From contig JARGFV010000042.1 in NCBI GenBank assembly GCA_029210545.1, positions 1-19,661 on the forward strand: a stretch of 19,661 bases of DNA, in the 5' to 3' direction. The notes under the pieces were generated by a model. That model was given only the letters and a program-made list of their open reading frames with translations. It did no database searches and was not told the origin of the DNA. Position 1 is the stretch's first letter. The number at the start of each line of letters is the position of its first letter. This DNA is from a bacterium. Lineage in GTDB: Bacteria > BMS3Abin14. A program made the position numbers and the translations under genes. Of this stretch, positions 11,687 through 19,661 are shown one piece after another.

Positions 11687-12091
11687 TCACATGATATCTG
11701 TGAACAGCGGTTCCAGGCCGCGCTCCCGGATCTTTTTCATGAGGCGAGCGAGCTCTTCTTCGGGGGTGAGGGTGCGCTTCTTCTCAGGTGGGTTGTAGCC
11801 GGCGGCCTCACACAAAAAACCGACCACTTCGCTCATAAAGAGGTCGGGGTTCTCCAGGACCAGGGCGGGGATGTGGTGGGTCTTGAAGCGCTTCTGTTCG
11901 CCGTTGGTGTTTAGGATCTCGGACAGGTAACTGTAGGAGACATCGAGGATGGAGGCCAGGTCCTGGCGGTCGATGGAGTGGGCCACACCTTTGAAGCGAC
12001 GGTCCAATTCGGCGGCGAGAACCTTGTTTCGTGTGGCCCGCTCCTGTATCTCCAGATCCCTAAAAGCCATTTGGGTACCGTTTTTCACCAT
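11687..12091 (-). CDS. CII-like phage regulator
   Basis: A 134-residue protein. ATG 12091 follows AAGGAGG by 5 bases, a strong site. The central part RQDLASILDVSYSYLSEILN (about residues 42-62) is a helix-turn-helix, followed by HIPALVLENPDLFMSEVVGF, which resembles the CII/CP76-type regulators of P2-like and other prophages. The C-terminus is charged (RTLTPEEELARLMKKIRERG). It is the second gene on the leftward transcript, after the Cro-like gene, where CII-type activators usually sit. Regulatory role likely; exact target unknown. Confidence 0.7.
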   Translation of the reverse strand: MVKNGTQMAFRDLEIQERATRNKVLAAELDRRFKGVAHSIDRQDLASILDVSYSYLSEILNTNGEQKRFKTHHIPALVLENPDLFMSEVVGFLCEAAGYNPPEKKRTLTPEEELARLMKKIRERGLEPLFTDIM

Positions 12092-12105
12092 GCCGGCCTC
12101 CTTGA

Positions 12106-12165
12106 TTACGCCGAGTTACGCCTAATAACTTATTAAAACTCCTGTTTATGTTATTAGCGTTACGG
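12106..12165. promoter_or_regulatory. TTACGCC direct repeats and inverted repeat upstream of CII-like gene
   Basis: TTACGCC occurs at 12106-12112 and 12116-12122, exactly 10 bases apart, so both face the same side of the helix. TTACGG follows at 12160-12165. CTAATAAC (12122-12129) also pairs with GTTATTAG (12150-12157). On the minus strand a weak promoter, GTGAAA then 17 bases then TAATAA, overlaps this area. Direct repeats one turn apart resemble CII-type or other activator sites. Function is inferred. Confidence 0.4.
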
Positions 12166-12210
12166 TAATTTTTTTTCACCCTGACTACGACAAAACTACG
12201 CTTCCATCCG

Positions 12211-12432
12211 CTATTCATTGGTGAAAATATCAGGGCGAAGATCAATGGCGCGCACCCGGCCTCCGGTGTGCCGCTCGATCTCCTTAGCGCGTTTTGGTGA
12301 GGTGAGAATGTGTCCGGATGCAACTTGGTCGATGGTATTCCTGGAACTGCCAATGGCGAGAGCCAAAGCACTGCGATCAATGCCAGAAAATCTCTCACGG
12401 AGCTTCACCTTATCAAGAAATGATGTGTTCAT
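12211..12432 (-). CDS. Cro/YdaS-like helix-turn-helix repressor
   Basis: A 73-residue protein, MNTSFLDKVKLRERFSGIDR onwards. DRSALALAIGSSRNTIDQVASG (about residues 19-40) is a compact helix-turn-helix of the Cro/YdaS type, followed by SPKRAKEIERHTGG, the usual fourth and fifth helices. It is first on the leftward lytic transcript and divergent from the CI-like repressor, as Cro is. The ATG lies 6 bases after the -10 box of a strong promoter and has no Shine-Dalgarno, so the message may be leaderless. Confidence 0.85.
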   Translation of the reverse strand: MNTSFLDKVKLRERFSGIDRSALALAIGSSRNTIDQVASGHILTSPKRAKEIERHTGGRVRAIDLRPDIFTNE

Positions 12433-12438
12433 ACCCGT

Positions 12439-12467
12439 TTATTAGTGTAGCTCTAAGGAAAAGTCAA
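12439..12467 (-). promoter_or_regulatory. Leftward lytic promoter (PR-like)
   Basis: On the minus strand TTGACT (12467-12462), a 17-base spacer and TAATAA (12444-12439) give a near-consensus sigma-70 promoter. The start codon of the Cro-like gene is 6 bases downstream of the -10 box, so transcription should begin at or next to the A of the ATG. This would be the main promoter for the whole leftward operon. Confidence 0.75.
12442..12456. promoter_or_regulatory. Candidate repressor operator 1
   Basis: TTAGTGTAGCTCTAA is an imperfect dyad with half-sites TTAGTG and, on the other strand, TTAGAG. It covers the -10 box and spacer of the leftward promoter, so a bound repressor would block it. Confidence 0.45.
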
Positions 12468-12472
12468 GGAGT

Positions 12473-12487
12473 TTAGAGTGACACTCC
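12473..12487. promoter_or_regulatory. Candidate repressor operator 2
   Basis: TTAGAGTGACACTCC contains the perfect dyad GAGTG-A-CACTC (12476-12486) and shares the TTAG(A/T)G half-site with operator 1. Their centres are 31 bases apart, about three helical turns, which suits cooperative binding. It lies just upstream of the leftward -35 box and near the start of the rightward repressor gene. Confidence 0.45.
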
Positions 12488-12523
12488 ATTTTAATTTGCG
12501 TAGCTAGGGTTCATTATTTAGAC

Positions 12524-12913
12524 ATGGAAGAGCGGGATCTCCGAAAAAGGGTTGCATTAAACTTTAAAAGGTTGAGGAAGGAAAGGGCGTGGACACAGGC
12601 CAAGGCGGCCGAAATTGGCGCGGTTGATTCCAGTTATATCGGACAAATAGAAACAGCCCAAATAACCTTTGGAACCAAGGCACAGATGAAGTGGGCATCC
12701 ATTTTTCGTGTGGACGTTTCTGAGTTTTTGGCTCCCGAAAAGTCCATGTCCATGGTTGGCTCCGTAGCGGCAGACGGTATTACCTTTTATCACGCCGACA
12801 AGGCACTAAATGGCCTGACTAATGACGAGGTAGAGCTGCTCGAGTGCTACCGGCAGATGCCTGAGGATAAAAGGAAGCATCTGCTGGCGACAGCAAGGCT
12901 TATTAAAGAGTAG
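12524..12913 (+). CDS. CI-like repressor, XRE family, no autocleavage domain
   Basis: A 129-residue protein. Residues about 7-67 form an XRE helix-turn-helix (VALNFKRLRKERAWTQAKAA, IGAVDSSYIGQIETAQITFG, ending in VDVSEFL). The C-terminal half is short and helical (ALNGLTNDEVELLECYRQMP) and lacks the Ser/Lys peptidase fold of LexA-type repressors. It faces the Cro-like gene across a 91-base control region. No Shine-Dalgarno lies upstream, so its message may also be leaderless. It would hold the lysogenic state. Induction cannot be by RecA-stimulated self-cleavage, so another route is expected. Confidence 0.85.
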   Translation: MEERDLRKRVALNFKRLRKERAWTQAKAAEIGAVDSSYIGQIETAQITFGTKAQMKWASIFRVDVSEFLAPEKSMSMVGSVAADGITFYHADKALNGLTNDEVELLECYRQMPEDKRKHLLATARLIKE

Positions 12914-12922
12914 GGGGTAAAA

Positions 12923-13462
12923 ATGATATATGTTGGTTTGTGGATGGTTGCCGCTTTTATATCTGCAATTGTGGCTAACAACAAAAACAGGAGTGGGGTG
13001 CTCTGGTTCTTCTTTACTATCCTTTTTGCCCCACTGGTCCTTGTGGCCTTGGTAATGCCAAAGGTAGAGAAAAAAGTGGCTCAAACAACCCAAACGGGTG
13101 AGGCCTCCCGGGAGGTTGTTGTGGAAACCGTGGAAGGCGGTAAGGTCGTGACTGTTCGCATGCCGGCTGAAATTAAATGTCCCATGTGTGCGGAAATCAT
13201 AAAAGGTGAAGCTTTAAAGTGCCGATTCTGTGGTCACGACCTGAGTGAGTGGAGAGAAGAGTATATTGAAAAAAACAAAGACTCATTAATTCTGATTGAC
13301 CATGGTCACGAGAATCTGGATCCGGACAACATGCTCAGGACTGCTGACTACCACAATTCGAATGGCAACTCACAAAAAGCCGCCGCTTATTACAGGCTGA
13401 TACTTCAGAAGTATCCAGAAACTGAGCACGCAGAGATAGCACAAAAGTCACTGTCGGGATGA
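12923..13462 (+). CDS. Lysogeny-operon membrane protein with zinc ribbon and TPR-like tail
   Basis: A 179-residue protein in three parts. Residues 3-19 and 26-45 are two membrane segments resembling superinfection-immunity proteins (SGVLWFFFTILFAPLVLVAL). Residues 86-103 are a four-Cys zinc ribbon (CPMC and CRFC). Residues about 135-176 are a TPR-like helical hairpin (ADYHNSNGNSQKAAAYYRLI). AGGGGG lies 5 bases before the ATG, and the gene starts 9 bases after the repressor stop. It should be expressed in lysogens, so a role in exclusion or host modification is plausible but not shown. It looks AT-richer than nearby late genes. Confidence 0.8.
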   Translation: MIYVGLWMVAAFISAIVANNKNRSGVLWFFFTILFAPLVLVALVMPKVEKKVAQTTQTGEASREVVVETVEGGKVVTVRMPAEIKCPMCAEIIKGEALKCRFCGHDLSEWREEYIEKNKDSLILIDHGHENLDPDNMLRTADYHNSNGNSQKAAAYYRLILQKYPETEHAEIAQKSLSG

Positions 13463-13914
13463 AGATACCTGCCTGGCCGCTGGTCACAGTGTTGTTTTTT
13501 CTTTTCCCTGCCTGCCACCTTGCCACTACAGGTGATCTTACCAGAATCCGCAGTGAGATCCGGGACGATGTCCGGGAGGAGATCCGTGATCGGGAGGACC
13601 GCCAGGCGGAGCTCGTAGCCGGCAAAGTGGCCGCGCGGATCCCCGCGGAGCCAGGACTCGCTGGCATGATCGCCGCGGTCCCCACATGGGGATGGTATGG
13701 GCTGGAGTTCTTCCTGGTCACCGGGTTCTTCATGGTCAACATGGTAGTCGCTTCCTGGAGGGATGTCCGTCTGGCCAGGATCACCAGGGACGAGATAGGT
13801 GCCCTCACCCTGGTGGAGATGATAGTGCAGAATATCCTGAGCAGGAGGGCGAACCCAATGGAGGACCCGGAACCACCAGAAGATAATGGACCACAGTTGA
13901 GGGTGATAAAATAG
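13459..13914 (+). CDS. Membrane-anchored coiled-coil protein of lysogeny operon
   Basis: A 151-residue protein whose ATG overlaps the previous stop (ATGA). The N-terminus is a signal-like hydrophobic stretch ending LFPACHL. Cys19 could be lipidated, but the lipobox is imperfect. Residues about 25-55 are a highly charged coiled coil (RIRSEIRDDVREEIRDREDR). A membrane segment follows near 79-98 (WYGLEFFLVTGFFMVNMVVA). The C-terminus is polar and Pro-rich. It shares a transcript with the repressor, so lysogenic expression is expected. It may work with the preceding membrane protein. Function unknown. Confidence 0.75.
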   Translation: MKIPAWPLVTVLFFLFPACHLATTGDLTRIRSEIRDDVREEIRDREDRQAELVAGKVAARIPAEPGLAGMIAAVPTWGWYGLEFFLVTGFFMVNMVVASWRDVRLARITRDEIGALTLVEMIVQNILSRRANPMEDPEPPEDNGPQLRVIK

Positions 13915-13955
13915 AGTTCAAAATATTCCCAGATTATTCCTGAAAATATTCCTGT

Positions 13956-13978
13956 GGCCCCACTCGAGGCCTTTTGTT
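13956..13978 (+). terminator. Possible terminator of lysogeny operon
   Basis: GGCC at 13956-13959 and 13968-13971 can pair around 8 bases and is followed by TTTTGTTT. The stem is short, so this is a weak candidate. Its position, 42 bases after the last lysogeny gene and before the next promoter, is right. Confidence 0.35.
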
Positions 13979-14013
13979 TGGGGTGATACTTTAGCGCCCC
14001 TCTAATTTTATCC

Positions 14014-14042
14014 TTGACAGTTCCTTAGTATTGCCCTAATAT
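14014..14042 (+). promoter_or_regulatory. Rightward early promoter (PL-like)
   Basis: TTGACA, a 17-base spacer and TAATAT form a near-perfect sigma-70 promoter, with a predicted start near 14049. It should drive the operon from 14280 to the integrase. No clear copy of the operator dyads found at 12442-12487 overlaps it. Confidence 0.85.
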
Positions 14043-14048
14043 TCAGCC

Positions 14049-14175
14049 CATGAAGGTCGGAGCTCAACACCCCATTTCTTCTGTTTTCCAATATCGTGGG
14101 TTCTGCGGTTCCCGAGTTCCGACCTCCTTCCGCAGACCCACACCCCCGGGGGAGCCATGCTCTCCTGGGGTTTTT
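14049..14175 (+). ncRNA. Structured leader or small RNA ending in a terminator
   Basis: From the predicted start of the early promoter to the T-tract is about 125 bases with no convincing gene. GGTCGGAGCTC (14055-14065) pairs with GAGTTCCGACC (14114-14124), 11 pairs with one G-T. TCTGCGG (14102-14108) pairs with CCGCAGA (14130-14136). These two stems cross, so they are either alternatives or a pseudoknot. The terminator stem follows. The arrangement suits an attenuator, an antitermination leader or a free small RNA. Two more hairpins lie after it (14197-14225 and 14231-14246), then the first gene. Together with the promoter this fills the gene-free stretch 13915-14279. Confidence 0.55.
14144..14175 (+). 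terminator. Intrinsic terminator in early leader
   Basis: CCCCGGGGGAG (14144-14154) pairs with CTCTCCTGGGG (14160-14170) along all 11 positions, two of them G-T, around the loop CCATG. TTTTT follows at 14171-14175. It lies about 100 bases after the early promoter start and before any early gene, so expression of the operon should need read-through. Confidence 0.75.
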
Positions 14176-14279
14176 CGTTCCAACCCCCCCAAGGAACCCG
14201 GCAGAGGGGCGCGCATTCTGCCGGGGTCATCGTTCCCCGACGAACGGCGGCATATTCACGCGCCCTAAAGGAGGTCGGC

Positions 14280-14438
14280 ATGCCTGAAATCAATGGACGT
14301 TTGGTTTGCTGTACGTGCGGCGCGGACCTGGGTGACGCCTCCGATCCGTACCGGGATCCGGATTGCGGCGACTGCCTGGACCGGGAGCTTAGGCAGGAGA
14401 TGGAGCGGGAGGCCGAGGAAGGCGACCGGTACCCCTGA
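14280..14438 (+). CDS. Small zinc-ribbon protein, 52 aa
   Basis: First gene of the early operon. The ATG at 14280 follows AAAGGAGGT by 4 bases, a very strong ribosome site. It reads MPEINGRLVCCTCGADLGDA and has Cys at 10, 11, 13, 29 and 32, giving a CxC...CxxC-type metal knuckle, then an acidic helix (RELRQEMEREAEEGDR). Small zinc proteins at this place often act as early regulators or anti-host factors, but no family is recognised. It is followed by a structured intergenic stretch. Confidence 0.75.
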   Translation: MPEINGRLVCCTCGADLGDASDPYRDPDCGDCLDRELRQEMEREAEEGDRYP

Positions 14439-14446
14439 AAGATTAA

Positions 14447-14511
14447 AGGCCGGGTTGGCCACCGGCCTCGGAGCTCCCATCCCCGTGGAGGGGCACAGCC
14501 CGCATGGGAGC
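14447..14511 (+). promoter_or_regulatory. Two-hairpin RNA element upstream of the Acb2-like gene
   Basis: AGGCCGG (14447-14453) pairs perfectly with CCGGCCT (14462-14468). GCTCCCAT (14473-14480) pairs perfectly with ATGGGAGC (14504-14511). Inside the second stem CCCC (14481-14484) can pair with GGGG (14490-14493), or GGGC (14491-14494) can pair with GCCC (14498-14501), and these exclude each other. There is no T-tract. The next gene starts 34 bases later. It could be an RNA-processing or protein-binding element; no known riboswitch is recognised. Confidence 0.5.
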
Positions 14512-14545
14512 AAAACACGGCCATTACTTCTAGCTGGAGGTAACC

Positions 14546-14752
14546 ATGAAAAATGAAATCAAAAACCGGTTCACTTATCACCCGCCGAAAGAAGGGCAGC
14601 CGGAACGGTACGTTGAGCTCAGGCGAAATGCTCATGCCTTTGCGGAACTGATTGTCGATCTTACCCCGGAAAGCCGTGAACAGAACCTGGCGCTGACGCA
14701 CATTGAGCAGGTCGTAATGTGGGCTAACGCGGCTATCGCCAGGAGGGAGTGA
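14546..14752 (+). CDS. acb2: Acb2/Tad1-family cyclic-nucleotide sponge (anti-CBASS)
   Basis: A 68-residue protein, full length for the hairpin-domain family. It carries the signature FTYHPPKEGQPERYVELR at residues 9-26, then ELIVDLTPESREQNLALTHI and the closing EQVVMWANAAIARRE. Acb2 proteins form hexamers that bind the signalling nucleotides made by CBASS cyclases. Related hairpin proteins (Tad1) bind the Thoeris signal. By binding the messenger they stop the host effector from being activated. Tyr11 in the TYHPPK motif is the aromatic expected at the ligand pocket. GGAGGT lies 4 bases upstream. Family membership is clear from the motif; which nucleotides it binds is inference. Confidence 0.85.
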   Translation: MKNEIKNRFTYHPPKEGQPERYVELRRNAHAFAELIVDLTPESREQNLALTHIEQVVMWANAAIARRE

Positions 14753-14753
14753 A

Positions 14754-14960
14754 GTGCCACCCACCAAGAAGGAAGTCTGGTACAGGCCGGGTGCCACATG
14801 CGGCTGGAACAACTGCAGCCGATGCGTCAATTTCCGGGACCACAGTCCCGACAATGGTATCCGGAGCCGCTGCGCGTTTCTCGAAGCACCCGTGAAGCGG
14901 GAGCATACCTGTGAACTCTTCGTCGAGGATCCCGAGTGGAGAAATCCTTATGAGCTCTGA
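14754..14960 (+). CDS. Small Cys-rich protein, 68 aa
   Basis: A gene starting at GTG 14754, one base after the Acb2-like stop. The run GGAGGG lies just upstream, inside the end of that gene. It reads MPPTKKEVWYRPGATCGWNN and has Cys at 16, 21, 24, 40 and 53 (CGWNNCSRC, RCAFLE, HTCELF), a likely zinc or Fe-S site. It overlaps the next gene by 11 bases. Being coupled to an anti-CBASS gene makes it a candidate anti-defence partner, but no homology supports a function. Confidence 0.7.
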   Translation: MPPTKKEVWYRPGATCGWNNCSRCVNFRDHSPDNGIRSRCAFLEAPVKREHTCELFVEDPEWRNPYEL

Positions 14961-15693
14961 GATCGCCATCCCGGAATCCCATGTTCCCATGTCCCTGGCC
15001 CGGCCCCCCGAGGTCGTGCTGCGAGAGGCTCAGCAGGTGGCCACAGCTCTCAAGGACGTAGTTGAGAAAGCCGGTCTCGCCATCAGTATGGGGAAAGACC
15101 GTGGCGGCAAGGAACGCAAGCACCTGCAGCTGGAGGCCTGGCAGACCGCGGGCATGATGTTCGGCTGCACGGCGTCCATCGTGTGGTCCCGTCAGGTGGA
15201 CGTGAATGGAGCTGCCGGCTATGAGGCCCGCGCGGAGGTCCTCGCCCAGGACGGCTCGGTGATCTCCGCCGCGGAGGCCATGTGTCTCAACGACGAGGAG
15301 AAATGGTCGACCAAACCTAAGTACGAGTGGGTGGATGGCCGGCGCAGGAAAGTCGGTGACGAGCCTGTGCCCATGTTCCAGCTGCGGAGCATGGCCCAGA
15401 CACGGGCCATGGCGAAAGCCCTCAAAAATGTCCTCTCCTGGATCGTGGTCCTCGCCGGGTACCAACCCACACCGGCCGAGGAGATGGATGATCGGGACGG
15501 TGGTGACTCACCAGGTGAGCCCGGCGGTCTGGAACATCTCGACGCGCGGATCCGCGAGCTGGGCGAAGCGCTCGGAAAGGGGAAGGGGACCATCGACTCC
15601 GCCATCTCGGGATCCAGGACGAAGAAACAGAAAGATGATCTCGTCTCATCCTGGGAGAGGGCGCTCAAGGAAAAGGAGCCAGGCCATGCCTGA
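14950..15693 (+). CDS. Phage early protein, possible ssDNA-annealing recombinase
   Basis: A 247-residue protein starting at ATG 14950, 8 bases after GGAG. It belongs to a widespread phage family left hypothetical in most genomes. The core has HLQLEAWQTAGMMFGCTASI, a beta sheet (YEARAEVLAQDGSVISAAEA), then MFQLRSMAQTRAMAKALKNV and VVLAGYQPTPAEEM. A disordered linker and a short helical C-terminus follow. The helix after a beta sheet with the RAMAKALKN pattern recalls Rad52/ERF-type annealing proteins, and its place in the early operon fits. That link is inference. I am sure it is a gene, not of its activity. Confidence 0.85.
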   Translation: MSSEIAIPESHVPMSLARPPEVVLREAQQVATALKDVVEKAGLAISMGKDRGGKERKHLQLEAWQTAGMMFGCTASIVWSRQVDVNGAAGYEARAEVLAQDGSVISAAEAMCLNDEEKWSTKPKYEWVDGRRRKVGDEPVPMFQLRSMAQTRAMAKALKNVLSWIVVLAGYQPTPAEEMDDRDGGDSPGEPGGLEHLDARIRELGEALGKGKGTIDSAISGSRTKKQKDDLVSSWERALKEKEPGHA

Positions 15694-15949
15694 GGGTAAG
15701 TGCACATGTTGCGGGGTCAGATACTACGGATGGGCACTCGAAACGATGGTCACGCCCTGCGAGGTGTGCCTTGGTCCCATCCTGTTGACCAAAGGGGAAT
15801 ATCGGCTGGATGGCCTGGTCCGACCAGTCCCAGCGCCTCAGGAGACTATCTATAGTGACGAAGCCATTGCTGCTGTCCAGCAACGTCTCAGTCAGGAGTG
15901 CGGCCACGCCGCGACCCGACAGCGGCAGCGGACCTCCGTGGTGCGGTGA
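15686..15949 (+). CDS. Zinc-ribbon protein, 87 aa
   Basis: ATG 15686 follows AGGAG by about 10 bases and lies inside the end of the previous gene. The N-terminus is a four-Cys ribbon, KCTCCGVRYYGWALETMVTP then CEVCLG. A linker and an acidic/polar helix follow (SDEAIAAVQQRLSQECGHAA), ending in a basic tail. It overlaps the next start as TGATG. Probably binds nucleic acid or protein; family not recognised. Confidence 0.7.
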   Translation: MPEGKCTCCGVRYYGWALETMVTPCEVCLGPILLTKGEYRLDGLVRPVPAPQETIYSDEAIAAVQQRLSQECGHAATRQRQRTSVVR

Positions 15950-16437
15950 TGGATGTCCGATGTGAGCCCATGCACGCGAGGATCCCGCGGTCGGTGTGTG
16001 ACCGTCGTCGGTCCATCATGGGCAAGGACGGGAGTCAATACCATACGGAATGCAAGGGGTGTCATATGAATGACGGTGAGAAAAAGACCATGTGCGTCGA
16101 ATGCGGTGAGCGGCCATTCAACCCGAAATACTCGAAGATCATGAAGTGCTCGAAGTGTGTGGCCAAGACACGAAAACCTAGGGGAAGCAGAAAACCCCTC
16201 CATCCCGGGCACGGGGACGACGTCCTGCCACCGGTCGTCATACCTCAGGTGAAGCCGTCCAGGACCAACGGGCGTCCTGTAACGCTCACCACCATCAACT
16301 CAGTGGATCTTGAAGGCGACACCATCGCGACTATGCGCATTGCCCAAGAGTGGGTGGACAAACTGAACGCCGCGGGGATCCCCACCATGCTCGAGATCGC
16401 CATCAGGATCATCCCGGAGGAAGGGAGGGTCCAGTGA
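15949..16437 (+). CDS. Multi-zinc-ribbon protein, 162 aa
   Basis: The ATG at 15949 overlaps the previous stop (TGATG). It begins MDVRCEPMHARIPRSVCDRR. A Cys-dense region follows with CKGCHMN, CVECGERPF and CSKCVAK, enough for two or three zinc sites. The second half changes character: a basic Pro-rich linker, then a folded stretch (VTLTTINSVDLEGDTIATMR) ending in helices. The layout suggests a DNA- or RNA-binding regulator, but no family is identified. It was probably assembled from a zinc module and a separate domain. Confidence 0.7.
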   Translation: MDVRCEPMHARIPRSVCDRRRSIMGKDGSQYHTECKGCHMNDGEKKTMCVECGERPFNPKYSKIMKCSKCVAKTRKPRGSRKPLHPGHGDDVLPPVVIPQVKPSRTNGRPVTLTTINSVDLEGDTIATMRIAQEWVDKLNAAGIPTMLEIAIRIIPEEGRVQ

Positions 16438-16538
16438 ACCGCCTCGGTGAGCGCGTCTGCTTCGCCGTGGCCGTCTCCGGATGGGTTTTCTTGGTGGTCC
16501 ACCTGGTGGTGGCGTTCGCCAGGGGGACGCTGCCGTAA
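16434..16538 (+). CDS. Tiny membrane protein, 34 aa
   Basis: The frame starts at GTG 16434, overlapping the previous stop (GTGA), with GGGAGG 5 bases upstream. After five polar residues comes one long hydrophobic helix (VCFAVAVSGWVFLVVHLVVA) and a short tail. It is the first of four very small coupled genes. Function unknown. Single-helix phage proteins often act on host membrane complexes. Confidence 0.6.
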   Translation: MNRLGERVCFAVAVSGWVFLVVHLVVAFARGTLP

Positions 16539-16681
16539 TGGGTCAGGTAGATCCTTATGGATGGGAGACCTTCGGGTTTTTCTATCGGCTGTATCAAGTG
16601 GGCATGGATTCGATCGCCATGATGTCATCCGGGATGAACCAGATGGTCGATCCAGACTGCTGTGAATGGGTGAGGACATGA
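16538..16681 (+). CDS. Tiny protein rich in Met and aromatics, 47 aa
   Basis: ATG 16538 overlaps the previous stop (TAATG), and AGGGGG lies about 12 bases upstream. It reads MGQVDPYGWETFGFFYRLYQ and continues with a Met-rich helix (VGMDSIAMMSSGMNQM), ending DPDCCEWVRT. It may be a short amphipathic helix or a membrane-surface protein. Start and stop couplings on both sides support translation. No family recognised. Confidence 0.6.
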   Translation: MGQVDPYGWETFGFFYRLYQVGMDSIAMMSSGMNQMVDPDCCEWVRT

Positions 16682-16788
16682 AAATTGGACGGAGCAGAAA
16701 AATCTATTTCGAGATCGCTGACGTGATCATTCTCATGGCTATCTGGACCATGTTCATGTGGTTCGTTTTTCCGTGGATGGTGGGATGA
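16678..16788 (+). CDS. Tiny membrane protein, 36 aa
   Basis: ATG 16678 overlaps the previous stop (ATGA), with GTGAGG just upstream. A basic start (MKIGRSRKIYFE) is followed by one membrane helix (DVIILMAIWTMFMWFVFPWM). The positive-inside rule would leave the N-terminus in the cytoplasm. Function unknown. It is the third in the tiny-gene run and overlaps the following 23-residue frame. Confidence 0.6.
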   Translation: MKIGRSRKIYFEIADVIILMAIWTMFMWFVFPWMVG

Positions 16789-16856
16789 GCAGAGGGGTCG
16801 AAGGTCCCCCGCGGTCATCCAGCAGGAAAACACTGAAAGTCGGGAGGCTGGGTTGA
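16785..16856 (+). CDS. Very short basic peptide, 23 aa
   Basis: The frame MSRGVEGPPRSSSRKTLKVG ends RLG. Its ATG overlaps the previous stop (ATGA), and its stop overlaps the TTG start of the next gene. It may be a real basic peptide or only a translational bridge that carries ribosomes to the next start. Coupling is the only evidence. Confidence 0.35.
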   Translation: MSRGVEGPPRSSSRKTLKVGRLG

Positions 16857-17176
16857 CCACCCACTTCCACAACACAACTCACCAGGTGGGTGAGGCTCTC
16901 CGGATAGCGGTGGAGAACGCCCGCACCCAGGAGGAGAAAGTGGAAGTGTACTTCCGTTCATTCCCGGCCGGCCACGCGGCCAGCGCCTCGAGGATCCACC
17001 AGGCCATCTTCGGGTGGAGCTCGCCGATCCCTCTCACGAGCACCAGGAGGGCGCTGACGAACCTGACTACCACGGGAGTCCTGGAGAAAACCTGTGAGAA
17101 AACAGACGGGGCCTTCGGGCGCCCGGAGCACAAGTACCGACTGCTGCCAACGGAAGGACAGATGAGGCTGCTATGA
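16853..17176 (+). CDS. Winged-helix DNA-binding protein
   Basis: A 107-residue protein starting at TTG 16853, 5 bases after GGGAGG. Residues about 25-100 look like a winged helix: QEEKVEVYFRSFPAGHAAS, SRIHQAIFGWSSPIPLTSTR, RALTNLTTTGVLEKTCEK as recognition helix and turn, then a basic wing (GAFGRPEHKYRLL). This pattern is common in small phage regulators. Its targets cannot be told from sequence. The stop overlaps the HNH gene start (ATGA). Confidence 0.75.
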   Translation: MTTHFHNTTHQVGEALRIAVENARTQEEKVEVYFRSFPAGHAASASRIHQAIFGWSSPIPLTSTRRALTNLTTTGVLEKTCEKTDGAFGRPEHKYRLLPTEGQMRLL

Positions 17177-17481
17177 GCAAGACAAACGTGAGCTGCACCA
17201 TCGAACTCTGCAGCTTGCGACACGCGTGCGCTCCGACTGGGATAGTCCTCCAAACCCACCACATATGGCCAGGTAGCGGCAACAGGGTGGACTGTGTCTT
17301 TCAGGCCTCGAGGAAGTCGGGCACACCAGGTGGCCACATCCACCCGGAAGGGTGCCAGTGCAACCTGATGCTGCTCTGCTCGCCCCACCACCGCCAGGCT
17401 CACGACCGTGGGGATGTCTGGCTATATCTGAAAACAAACGACTGGAGGGTGGGACAAAAGCTATGGCTGGTGGGGAGATGA
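17173..17481 (+). CDS. HNH-type nuclease-like protein
   Basis: A 102-residue protein. Cys 8, 13, 61, 63 and 69 give likely zinc ligands. The HNH-like core has THHIWPGSG (H29, H30), then CNLMLLCSPHHRQAHD with Asn64, His72, His73 and His77. This matches the His-Asn-His metal finger of small HNH endonucleases, which cut DNA in repair, packaging or recombination. In an early operon near a possible annealing protein, a recombination role is plausible. Catalytic activity is not proven. Confidence 0.75.
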   Translation: MSKTNVSCTIELCSLRHACAPTGIVLQTHHIWPGSGNRVDCVFQASRKSGTPGGHIHPEGCQCNLMLLCSPHHRQAHDRGDVWLYLKTNDWRVGQKLWLVGR

Positions 17482-17645
17482 TTTGGGAACACGATAATCT
17501 CGCGTCGGACCTGGCCACACTGAGGCGCATGGACACGGACGGGCGGGCCAAGGAATTGGCCCGCAATCTCCGACGTTCGGTCGATCCAATCAAGATCGCC
17601 GCCAGGGTGGTCGATGAAATGATCGCGGAGCTTGAGGGACCTTGA
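17478..17645 (+). CDS. Small helical protein upstream of integrase, 55 aa
   Basis: The ATG at 17478 overlaps the HNH stop (ATGA), and its stop overlaps the integrase TTG start (TTGA). It reads MIWEHDNLASDLATLRRMDT and ends VDEMIAELEGP: two or three charged helices. An in-frame ATG at 17463 would add five residues. Its place directly before the integrase is where excisionases often lie, but no helix-turn-helix is visible, so I do not call it Xis. Confidence 0.65.
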   Translation: MIWEHDNLASDLATLRRMDTDGRAKELARNLRRSVDPIKIAARVVDEMIAELEGP

Positions 17646-18868
17646 CCACCCCCATCCCTCCTGATATCCTCCTCGGTCTCGGGGAGGTCTACGTGCGGGG
17701 GACAATTCGCTGCGGTTACTTCAGGTGCGGTCGACGTCGGGCCGAGCAGGTGTGTCCAACCTGCGGCCGCGTGCCGTGCAGCATCGTCCTCTACTGGAAG
17801 GGGCGCACCTTCACCTACCGCCGGGATCCACAGGGCCTCCAGTTCGGATACCCCTCCGCCCAGCTGTTCCTGAACCGTATCGTTTCCGACATCAACGACG
17901 AGAGAAAGGGCCTGAAGACCTTCAACCCCGAGGAGTATTCCACCGGGAGGATGGCTGCGCGCACACTCGAGGTGAAGGCGTGGGAGTGGCATGAGGTCAA
18001 GGGGTCGGAGGTTGAGTCAGGAGAACTCTCACCTGGGACGCTGAGAGAATACCGGAACTACATCCGGAACCACTGGATCCCCCACCTGGGACGTCTGGAC
18101 GTCAGGGACATCCAGCACCCTGAGTTGGAGAAATTCAAGCGTGACCTGAAAGGGATCAAGGCCAAGACGCGGCGCAACATCGTCTACGGGCTCAGGACGT
18201 TTTTCGGATGGCTGAGAAGGGAAGGGGTCCTGAAAGAGGTCCCTATATTCCCGGCCATGGAAGTGTCGGACGCCAAGGTCATGGTGGCATTGGACATGGA
18301 CGACCAGGCTGTCGCCCTCGCGCGGATCCCGGAGGACCACAGGGACGTGATCGAGTTCGGCATGGAGACGGGGTTGCGCCCAGGGGAGACATGCGCGCTG
18401 AAGATCCACGATCTTGACCTCAGAGAAGGCGCGGCCCTCATCCAGCGCACCTGGTCCGGATCGCAAATGAGGGAGACCACGAAGGGAAAGAACAAGCGCT
18501 GGATCCCACTGTCGGACCGCGCCCTGGCGGTGGCGAAGGACCACGCCAGGGGGAGGGTGGGGGACCAGTTCCTATTCATCCATCCGGGCACGAACAGAGG
18601 CTACATGCCGGCGTATCTCAGAAAGACCTGGCGCCGTCACTCCGGGACCCCGGTTACCTACTACGAGGCCAGCCGGCATTCCTTCTGCACACAGATCGTG
18701 GAGACGGGAGCGTCAGCCCTCGAGGCCCAGGCGCTCATGCGGCACGCCGACCAGAGGTCTACAGGACATTACTACCACGCTCGGCCGCGGAAGCTGAAGG
18801 AGCTGGTAAACCGTCGGACTGCGAAGGTGGTGAGGTTATATGACATTGACACTGGAACAGAAAATTGA
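17642..18868 (+). CDS. int: Tyrosine-recombinase integrase with N-terminal zinc ribbon
   Basis: A 408-residue integrase starting at TTG 17642, coupled to the previous stop. Residues 24-46 hold six-base-pattern zinc ligands (CGYFRC, then CPTCGRVPC), followed by an arm-binding domain. The core-binding helices span about 130-205 (SPGTLREYRNYIRNHWIPHL). Catalytic residues visible are Arg246 (ETGLRPGE), the Lys hairpin (TKGKNKRWIPL, near 281-289), Arg345 and His346 (YEASRHSF), His368 (LMRHAD) and the nucleophile Tyr377 or Tyr378 (STGHYYH). The first box II His is replaced by Glu, a known variation. It should act on the attP at 18977-19120. Confidence 0.95.
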   Translation: MTTPIPPDILLGLGEVYVRGTIRCGYFRCGRRRAEQVCPTCGRVPCSIVLYWKGRTFTYRRDPQGLQFGYPSAQLFLNRIVSDINDERKGLKTFNPEEYSTGRMAARTLEVKAWEWHEVKGSEVESGELSPGTLREYRNYIRNHWIPHLGRLDVRDIQHPELEKFKRDLKGIKAKTRRNIVYGLRTFFGWLRREGVLKEVPIFPAMEVSDAKVMVALDMDDQAVALARIPEDHRDVIEFGMETGLRPGETCALKIHDLDLREGAALIQRTWSGSQMRETTKGKNKRWIPLSDRALAVAKDHARGRVGDQFLFIHPGTNRGYMPAYLRKTWRRHSGTPVTYYEASRHSFCTQIVETGASALEAQALMRHADQRSTGHYYHARPRKLKELVNRRTAKVVRLYDIDTGTEN

Positions 18869-19025
18869 GGAGATCACGGCGGCCATTGAGGCACAGCAGG
18901 AGGGCGGTATGATCTCCGCCTGGCTGACGACTGCCATGCTGAGGGACGCTGTCCGTCAATATGGCACAAATGGAGACTCTTTTCAGACCCATGTCAGGCG
19001 CCACTCTAAGCCCCTTAAAACATAG
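18840..19025 (+). CDS. Small protein between integrase and attP, 61 aa
   Basis: The ATG at 18840 lies 29 bases inside the end of the integrase gene, with GAGG 4 bases upstream. It reads MTLTLEQKIEEITAAIEAQQ and ends HVRRHSKPLKT. The N-terminus is a clear helix, and the C-terminus is basic. One 21-bp arm repeat falls within its 3' end, and its stop is 8 bases before the attachment core. An accessory recombination factor is possible. Without homology the frame could be chance. Confidence 0.5.
   Translation: MTLTLEQKIEEITAAIEAQQEGGMISAWLTTAMLRDAVRQYGTNGDSFQTHVRRHSKPLKT
18977..18997 (+). repeat. attP arm-type direct repeat, copy 1
   Basis: CTCTTTTCAGACCC then ATGTCAG. The same 21 bases with one change (T for A at position 15) recur at 19100-19120. 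The copies flank the tRNA-derived core at similar distances (35 and 39 bases), as expected for integrase arm sites. Confidence 0.7.
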
Positions 19026-19032
19026 CCCTCAC

Positions 19033-19060
19033 GCAGGTTCGAATCCTGCATCGCGCGCCA
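19033..19060 (+). other. attP core: 3' end of a tRNA gene
   Basis: GCAGG-TTCGAAT-CCTGC is a perfect T-arm with the TTCGAAT loop. It is followed by a seven-base acceptor strand ATCGCGC, the discriminator G and CCA. No matching 5' acceptor (GCGCGAT) or other tRNA arms lie upstream, so this is only a tRNA 3' half. Integration here would rebuild the host tRNA gene. The identity of the tRNA cannot be read from this fragment. Confidence 0.85.
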
Positions 19061-19072
19061 CTTAAACGCACG

Positions 19073-19108
19073 AAAACACAGGGATTACACCTGTGTTTTC
19101 TCTTTTCA
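19073..19108. terminator. Bidirectional terminator between integrase operon and tail operon
   Basis: AAAACACAGG (19073-19082) pairs perfectly with CCTGTGTTTT (19090-19099) around GATTACA. T-rich sequence follows on the plus strand, and the A-tract gives a U-tract on the minus strand. It separates the rightward integrase operon from the leftward tail genes. Confidence 0.75.
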
Positions 19109-19120
19109 GACCCTTGTCAG
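19100..19120 (+). repeat. attP arm-type direct repeat, copy 2
   Basis: CTCTTTTCAGACCC then TTGTCAG, the partner of the repeat at 18977-18997. It overlaps the right side of the terminator and ends at the stop codon of the next leftward gene. Confidence 0.7.
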
Positions 19121-19444
19121 TTAGGTTGAGAAGTCCTCTACAACCGCGAACTCGAGCAGGTCCGGAGCGGTCTCGTATACCCCAGCGGTCCACTCTATTT
19201 CCAGCTCCACCTGATAGATTGCCGCCACGGTGTTCAGATCCCCGCTTTGCCAGTCCAGTCGGAAAATACCATTGGCCGCGTCCACCGGCGTGAGCGATCG
19301 GGTGACCTTGATGGTCGACTGTCCCTTGATTTTGACGTGGCCACGGACCGCCGTAGCGCCGGAGAGGTCGATGGCCGTACCGCCCCTGGTAAACGTCACC
19401 TGGGGGCTCGGTAGCTGATCATTCTTCCGGTATATCAACGACAT
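19121..19444 (-). CDS. Phage tail/baseplate-type protein, 107 aa
   Basis: The ATG at 19444 follows GGAGGT by 6 bases. It reads MSLIYRKNDQLPSPQVTFTR and has a single beta-rich domain (AIDLSGATAVRGHVKIKG, later IYQVELEIEWTAGVYETAPD). The pattern of two sheets with DLSGAT resembles the N-terminal domain of BppU-type baseplate proteins and related tail-tip proteins. It is the last gene of the leftward tail operon and ends at the attP arm. A structural role is likely; the exact part is unknown. Confidence 0.75.
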   Translation of the reverse strand: MSLIYRKNDQLPSPQVTFTRGGTAIDLSGATAVRGHVKIKGQSTIKVTRSLTPVDAANGIFRLDWQSGDLNTVAAIYQVELEIEWTAGVYETAPDLLEFAVVEDFST

Positions 19445-19571
19445 AATCGACCTCCGATAGTTTGACGGTGATCCCGTTCTCGGTCAGCAGGGTGGCGAGC
19501 GGCTCGAGGGACCTGAAGATCGCTTCCCCCCACTTCGCCTCTCCCCATTTGACCTGTCCCCATTTAGCCAT
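19419..19571 (-). CDS. Small WG-repeat phage protein, 50 aa
   Basis: The ATG at 19571 opens MAKWGQVKWGEAKWGEAIFR: three KWG repeats at four- or five-residue spacing. A helix (SLEPLATLLTENGI) and a beta strand follow, ending DIPEE. It overlaps the next gene start by 26 bases. Short KWG-type repeats occur in small tail-associated phage proteins. No clear ribosome site is seen. Probably a tail accessory protein. Confidence 0.65.
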   Translation of the reverse strand: MAKWGQVKWGEAKWGEAIFRSLEPLATLLTENGITVKLSEVDYVVDIPEE

Positions 19572-19585
19572 CACTACCAGACCAG

Positions 19586-19661
19586 TCAGACGTCATACGT
19601 CACCGTCCATCCCTTACCCTGGAGATTGGTGATTGCCGCCAGCCCGGTCGCTGAGGGAACC
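19586..19661 (-). CDS. C-terminus of a tail fibre or repeat protein (partial)
   Basis: Only the last 24 residues are in the window: VPSATGLAAITNLQGKGWTV then TYDV and a TGA stop at 19586. The ending is typical of leucine-rich-repeat-like or tail fibre proteins in phages (a short repeat tail closing in GWTVTY). The 5' part lies beyond the right edge. The exact family cannot be fixed. Confidence 0.6.
   Translation of the reverse strand, partial: VPSATGLAAITNLQGKGWTVTYDV

Follow-up and report, generated by a model that had tools for sequence, protein, structure and literature searches.

In phages P4, P1 and N15, an antisense loop controls kil or antirepressor-type genes. The CI RNA of P4 arises by cleavage of the leader; its pairing partners are seqA on the upstream side and seqC on the downstream side, and it brings about termination (PMC4825925). 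In c4, the antisense loop is aimed at a ribosome-binding region further along its own transcript (reviewed in PMC12197685). In Gifsy-1, the leader RNA IsrK ends at a terminator and pairs with its own read-through mRNA (PMC4825925). HK022 has similar put copies on its pL and pR transcripts, putL consisting of two tandem stem-loops within ~74 nt (PMC9378689). Here we describe a terminated leader at a lambda-like locus that we tentatively read, with a probability of about 0.4, as an attenuated pL leader RNA that also serves as a C4-like antisense regulator, by a mechanism that we infer.

Gene order and the early promoter

The window analysed, 19,661 nt in length, is one entire contig of a 241-contig genome. 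Since head genes and an integrase are present and a complete tail module was not recognised, the contig probably represents part of a temperate phage or prophage. Protein-family searches of the window revealed a lambda-like gene order around the leader. Two genes occupy the rex position, between the helix–turn–helix (HTH) repressor gene and the pL-type promoter. The minus-strand side carries the cro-like gene, a regulator, replication initiation and head genes, and the pL-type operon runs from a 52-aa gene through an Acb2/Tad1-type gene, a PHROG-19042 protein and further genes to the integrase.

12211-12432, minus strand: cro-like gene, divergent from the pL-type promoter
12524-12913: repressor-type HTH gene, preceding the pL-type promoter
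14280-14438, plus strand: first operon gene, its 52-aa product having paired cysteines and homologues encoded on two viral contigs (80-83% over 35 aa)
14546-14752, plus strand: next gene, encoding an Acb2/Tad1-type hairpin-domain protein (Pfam PF24729, E 2e-20; PHROG 1454, E 3e-27)
17642-18868: integrase, at the far end of the pL-type operon

The leader follows the top sigma-70-type match within 12000-19661, in which TTGACA begins at 14014 and TAATAT lies at 14037-14042. The preliminary description had called this promoter near-perfect, which holds for the -35 hexamer but not for the -10 hexamer (4/6).

12440-12470, minus strand: partner pR-type promoter, serving the cro-like gene and sharing the dyad (12442-12456)
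13991-14005, strandless: operator-like dyad TTAG-N7-CTAA, perfect match, second and upstream site of the pL-type promoter
14014-14042, plus strand: pL-type early promoter, TTGACA-17-TAATAT (10/12 consensus)
14025-14039, strandless: operator-like dyad TTAG-N7-CTAA between -35 and -10, perfect match

When 14011-14041 is set against the reverse complement of 12440-12470, 24 of 31 positions are identical, and outside the hexamers the pL-type and cro-side promoters agree at 14 of 20. The dyad falls within the spacer and -10 of both. Exactly three perfect copies of TTAG-N7-CTAA occur in the window, all at the two promoters (0.04 expected), and a longer form, CCTTAGN7CTAATA, is found in the 2.7-Mb genome only at the pL-type promoter and at 12440-12458. 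The dyads, putative operators, are thus common to the cro-side promoter, and the promoter itself is positioned after the repressor gene and towards the integrase, as expected of a lambda-type pL. From the shared dyads and the lambda-like gene order, we conclude that the sequence at 14014-14042 is a pL-type early promoter. The assignment as an early promoter in the preliminary description is therefore borne out, also by the 31-nt similarity to the cro-side promoter. The promoter is apparently controlled by the phage's own repressor, and the protein encoded at 12524 would be the one that binds the dyads.

The arrangement recalls pL-nutL-N in the lambda record in the order of cI, two rex-position genes, a pL that shares operators with pR, and integrase at the far end. 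It departs from lambda in that a terminator lies ahead of the first gene and that this gene is not recognisably N. At the cro-like gene (12432-12445), an ATG is found at the expected transcription start of the minus-strand promoter, and this gene is probably leaderless; the pL-type promoter likewise has an ATG (14050) near +1, in a non-coding frame.

Leader RNA, crossing helices and terminator

Promoter spacing places the expected transcript start at ~14048-14050, and an intrinsic terminator lies ~125 nt from the likely start. The predicted features between the promoter and the first gene are as follows.

14050-14176, plus strand: predicted leader RNA, ~125 nt, starting 7 nt past the -10 and ending in a T run
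14054-14065, plus strand: element A, 5' arm of stem 1, complementary to B (-21.1 kcal/mol)
14096-14141, plus strand: stem-loop P2, 12 bp plus one bulge, with a 21-nt loop (14109-14129) displaying B (-21.6 kcal/mol)
14114-14129, plus strand: element B, GAGTTCCGACCTCCTT, which pairs with A and whose last 11 nt are a perfect complement of C
14144-14175, plus strand: intrinsic terminator, 12-bp stem with 9 G-C pairs, T run
14194-14251, plus strand: two further hairpins between terminator and first gene (~14194-14228 and 14226-14251)
14268-14278, plus strand: element C, AAGGAGGTCGG, the Shine-Dalgarno (SD) region of the first gene, perfectly complementary to 14119-14129 over 11 nt

Codon-usage scores were negative in every forward frame between promoter and terminator, compared with a coding score of +0.18 for the 52-aa gene at 14280. 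One candidate, a leaderless 72-aa open reading frame (ORF) that would run across the terminator (14050-14268), was rejected at a score of -0.27, whereas 18 other ORFs in the window scored +0.13 to +0.46. As this is the sole ORF from 14050, the terminator is indeed preceded by no gene, as had been proposed.

Stem 1, in which A (14054-14065) pairs with 14114-14125, comprises 12 bp including one G-U, and a stem of at least 12 was reached in 9 of 1,000 leader shuffles. It crosses P2, the arms of which are 14096-14108 and 14130-14141 with a single bulged T; crossing helices of similar length appeared in 8 of 1,000 leader shuffles. The two crossing stems of the preliminary description are therefore present, the second of them longer than the 7 bp noted there. 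The fold of the 131-nt leader had a z score of -3.6 relative to shuffles, with 1 of 200 equally good. A:B and P2 together could form an H-type pseudoknot in the modelled structure, with connecting segments of 30, 5 and 4 nt. Nested folding favoured P2 (p 0.86) over A:B, and the probability of P2 was 0.86-0.96 across ensembles. During transcription, A:B is able to form first, since the initial 75 nt already fold into a single long A:B helix; P2 corresponds to nt 47-92 of the leader. We are highly confident that this anatomy of the leader is real. The literature that we searched contained no account of a pseudoknot in the leader of a lambdoid pL promoter.

The terminator stem (14144-14170, loop of 3) is followed by TTTTTCGTT and was the strongest in a scan of 12000-19661. 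It formed with p = 0.98 in every ensemble, with or without A, B or P2 available, which agrees with the strong terminator soon after the promoter that had been noted, as do the two hairpins said to lie past it. We found no competing antiterminator structure upstream in free or constrained ensembles, so that the leader does not resemble a riboswitch or classical attenuator. Because no leader structure was found that would undo the terminator, read-through would depend on leakiness or processive antitermination; an attenuator, one of the roles first suggested, is conceivable in that sense and not through alternative folding. The simplest reading of a promoter followed by an unconditional terminator would be a ~125-nt small RNA.

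Complementarity to the Shine-Dalgarno region of the first gene

Within the P2 loop, 14119-14129 reads CCGACCTCCTT and is perfectly complementary to the Shine-Dalgarno region that precedes the 52-aa gene at 14280. This complement, searched for after the sequence had been seen, is absent from the preliminary description and points to antisense control. A complement of at least 11 nt to the SD was found in 1 of 5,000 leader shuffles. An empirical background was drawn from 1.09 Mb of viral and genomic DNA and control phages (including lambda, HK022, P1, N15, D3 and part of P4): of its 1,558 SD-bearing starts, one was preceded within 200 nt by at least 11 perfectly antisense bases. This leader also had the longest complement among 34 terminator-then-gene sites of an earlier, smaller set of loci. 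We compared the P2 loop with the 36 gene starts of the window, and the gene at 14280 paired best (-21.9 kcal/mol), followed at -19.4 kcal/mol by the second gene of the cro-side operon. The start context of that second gene (12091-12107), AAGGAGGCCGGCATG, is almost identical to that of gene 14280, AAGGAGGTCGGCATG. Seven of the 11 B-C pairs are made with the general SD consensus, so any anti-SD-like loop brings part of the match. A pattern search for the host 16S tail returned one-mismatch sites only.

The element order A-B-C is that of the P4 CI RNA leader, and the hairpin loop is complementary to a downstream ribosome-binding region of the same transcript, as is characteristic of C4-type RNAs. 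Nested folding of the read-through mRNA as far as 14340 left B in the P2 loop (B-C p = 0), and the SD was just as open when B was available as when it was not; in a shorter fold ending at 14280, B-C pairing is present. Since B does not reach C in the nested cis fold, B-C pairing would have to act in trans or as a loop interaction.

Comparison with known leader RNAs

The Rfam covariance model of C4 (RF01695) had no match in the window at the gathering score, nor in 13900-14600 at E up to 5, and that of isrK (RF01394) had no match in the window or in 13900-14600. As a positive control, both models detected P4 and N15. We applied the same A-B-C search to the P4 leader and recovered a B with complements upstream and downstream, located between the arms of a 17-bp stem and inside the Rfam C4 stretch. 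The upstream element of P4 is isrK by Rfam, and N15 also carries C4 and isrK elements.

The leader resembles the P4 CI RNA in having A upstream, B displayed by a hairpin and C downstream, with RNA and target on one transcript. It differs in that P4 has an isrK-family (seqA) element preceding its C4 hairpin, whereas here a terminator follows B. The P4 CI RNA acts by transcription termination, whereas in the present leader the SD itself serves as C, and repressor-type dyads accompany the promoter. With the c4 RNA of P1/P7 and the CA RNA of N15 (RF01695), the locus shares a loop that is antisense to a downstream ribosome-binding region; in P1/P7, c4 controls an antirepressor, whereas the putative target here is a 52-aa gene that heads an early operon, and the leader does not match the family. 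The plan of promoter, short terminated RNA and read-through mRNA complementary to the leader is also that of Gifsy-1 IsrK, but IsrK activates orf45 and its helix lies within orf45 and not at the SD. As in HK022 putL, a structured RNA begins directly past pL, but in HK022 the terminator is not part of the put element.

We detected no sequence relationship between the leader and the P4 or P1 RNAs, and no sequence relative of it emerged from the viral contigs, phages, plasmids and genomes that we searched. No relative was found by blastn in phages and plasmids, and 193 genomes yielded chance-length matches only. DNA patterns matched viral contigs at three palindromic sites, which is approximately the number expected by our estimate, and none of these aligned to the leader in a homology search; a further match lay inside a coding gene and was discarded. 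A covariance model of P2 plus terminator found no relative over 95 loci and gave one weak match (E 0.29) in the 12 genomes of the phylum. With the 52-aa gene as bait, we recovered two viral contigs of near-identical context without such a leader. Acb2 homologues (80 loci) and the protein encoded at 14953 (11 loci) led to no leader relative, and the latter had no homologue in relative genomes. Strong promoters were present upstream of several homologues of the 14953 protein, without a terminator-bearing leader. The repressor and the 13459 protein likewise gave no relatives as bait.

Proposed mechanism and alternative explanations

The antisense reading draws on one sequence, on its rarity against the background and on analogy. 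In a lysogen, the repressor would keep the pL-type promoter off. Upon infection or induction, most transcripts would stop near 14175 and give the ~125-nt RNA, in which B, held in the P2 loop, would pair in trans with C on the read-through mRNA and block translation of the first gene. Polarity arising from this block would damp the operon, that is, the 52-aa protein, the Acb2-like sponge and the later genes up to integrase. Element A would be a decoy of C that pairs with B once both are made, such that a new transcript may stay protected for as long as A has been neither processed away nor displaced. The folds do not predict a simple cis lock; the likely mode would be trans pairing or loop-to-SD pairing. 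The logic would be that of the P4 CI RNA and the P1/N15 C4 RNAs, but set in a repressor-controlled pL leader and ahead of a terminator.

A possible, if doubtful, account is plain attenuation, in which the terminator holds back the pL-type operon until antitermination sets in through an N- or Q-like protein or through host factors, with the pseudoknot as the RNA site of the factor or as a stabiliser and the SD match incidental. The strong unconditional terminator directly past an early promoter is what this account expects, and the N15 record annotates a putative terminator close to a repressor operator. Against it, the best lambda nut-type boxA in the leader scored 8/12, a level reached by ~300 of 1,000 shuffles and thus not above chance, with the caveat that the boxA consensus may not be that of the host; no antiterminator gene was recognised among the scanned proteins, and the 11-nt SD complement is left unexplained. 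We think it very improbable, at about the same low level as an IsrK-like switch, that the terminator is a mere insulator against upstream transcription or a leaky relic, with crossing stems and SD match arising by chance in G+C-rich intergenic DNA: no conservation is demonstrable and the individual features have chance levels of ~1 in 100 to 1 in 5,000, but several such rare features share one 230-nt stretch that is placed exactly between the repressor-type promoter and the first gene.

The remaining accounts assign the RNA another partner or mode of action. It is unlikely that the leader is a trans-acting small RNA with its main targets among other phage or host mRNAs, such as that of the second cro-side gene (11687-12091), the SD context of which is one base off that of gene 14280. 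That gene ranked second of 36 in pairing with the loop, and there are prophage small RNAs that serve several roles (PMC12197685), but the adjacent gene is the best target and CCTCCTT pairs with any SD. The switch modelled on Gifsy-1 IsrK, in which the read-through leader would fold on the start of the first gene and the short RNA would turn translation on in trans, has the same plan of promoter, short terminated RNA, read-through mRNA and a leader complementary to the downstream gene (PMC4825925); the nested fold to 14340 lacks B-C pairing in cis, albeit seen with the shorter 3' end, and isrK was not matched. We give least credence to a put-like RNA that binds RNA polymerase and suppresses downstream termination, as in HK022. 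This idea, raised in the preliminary description, is poorly supported, for although the leader sits directly past a pL-type promoter and has a structured 5' end, the fold is one pseudoknot as opposed to two tandem stem-loops in the first ~74 nt, and we found no second copy on the pR transcript, where the best local similarity to the leader was reached by 174 of 500 shuffles.

A bolder form of the antisense reading, which we consider rather unlikely, is that a lambda-organised phage of a poorly sampled bacterial lineage uses a C4-like antisense RNA, unrelated in sequence to C4 and set within a repressor-controlled pL leader, with a pseudoknot decoy (A) that times the silencing of an Acb2-type counter-defence operon. 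If this is true, P4-style RNA control would have originated independently here, and early counter-defence genes would be under a dose-sensing brake. Were the leader to work as proposed, the same RNA logic would have arisen without sequence relationship, under a protein repressor and in a lambda-type pL operon, with a counter-defence gene near the head of the controlled operon, and antisense leader control might be a more general design among temperate phages. The idea could be tested elsewhere by looking for terminated leaders between an early promoter and the first gene with a loop that complements the first SD.

Sequence repeats and hairpins near the leader

The sequence TCGGAGCTC has two copies only in the window, one at 14057-14065 within element A and one at 14468-14476, in the structured gap before the Acb2-type gene; pairing of the second copy with element B amounts to only -16.5 kcal/mol. 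The Shine-Dalgarno sequence of the Acb2-type gene is enclosed in a predicted hairpin of its own, TTACTTCT-AGCT-GGAGGTAA at 14524-14548. Two more G+C-rich hairpins occur within 14446-14545, the 100 nt ahead of that gene. Between the upstream gene and the pL-type promoter, AAAATATTCC is repeated 23 nt apart (13920-13952), and TGAAAATAT is also present at 12222.
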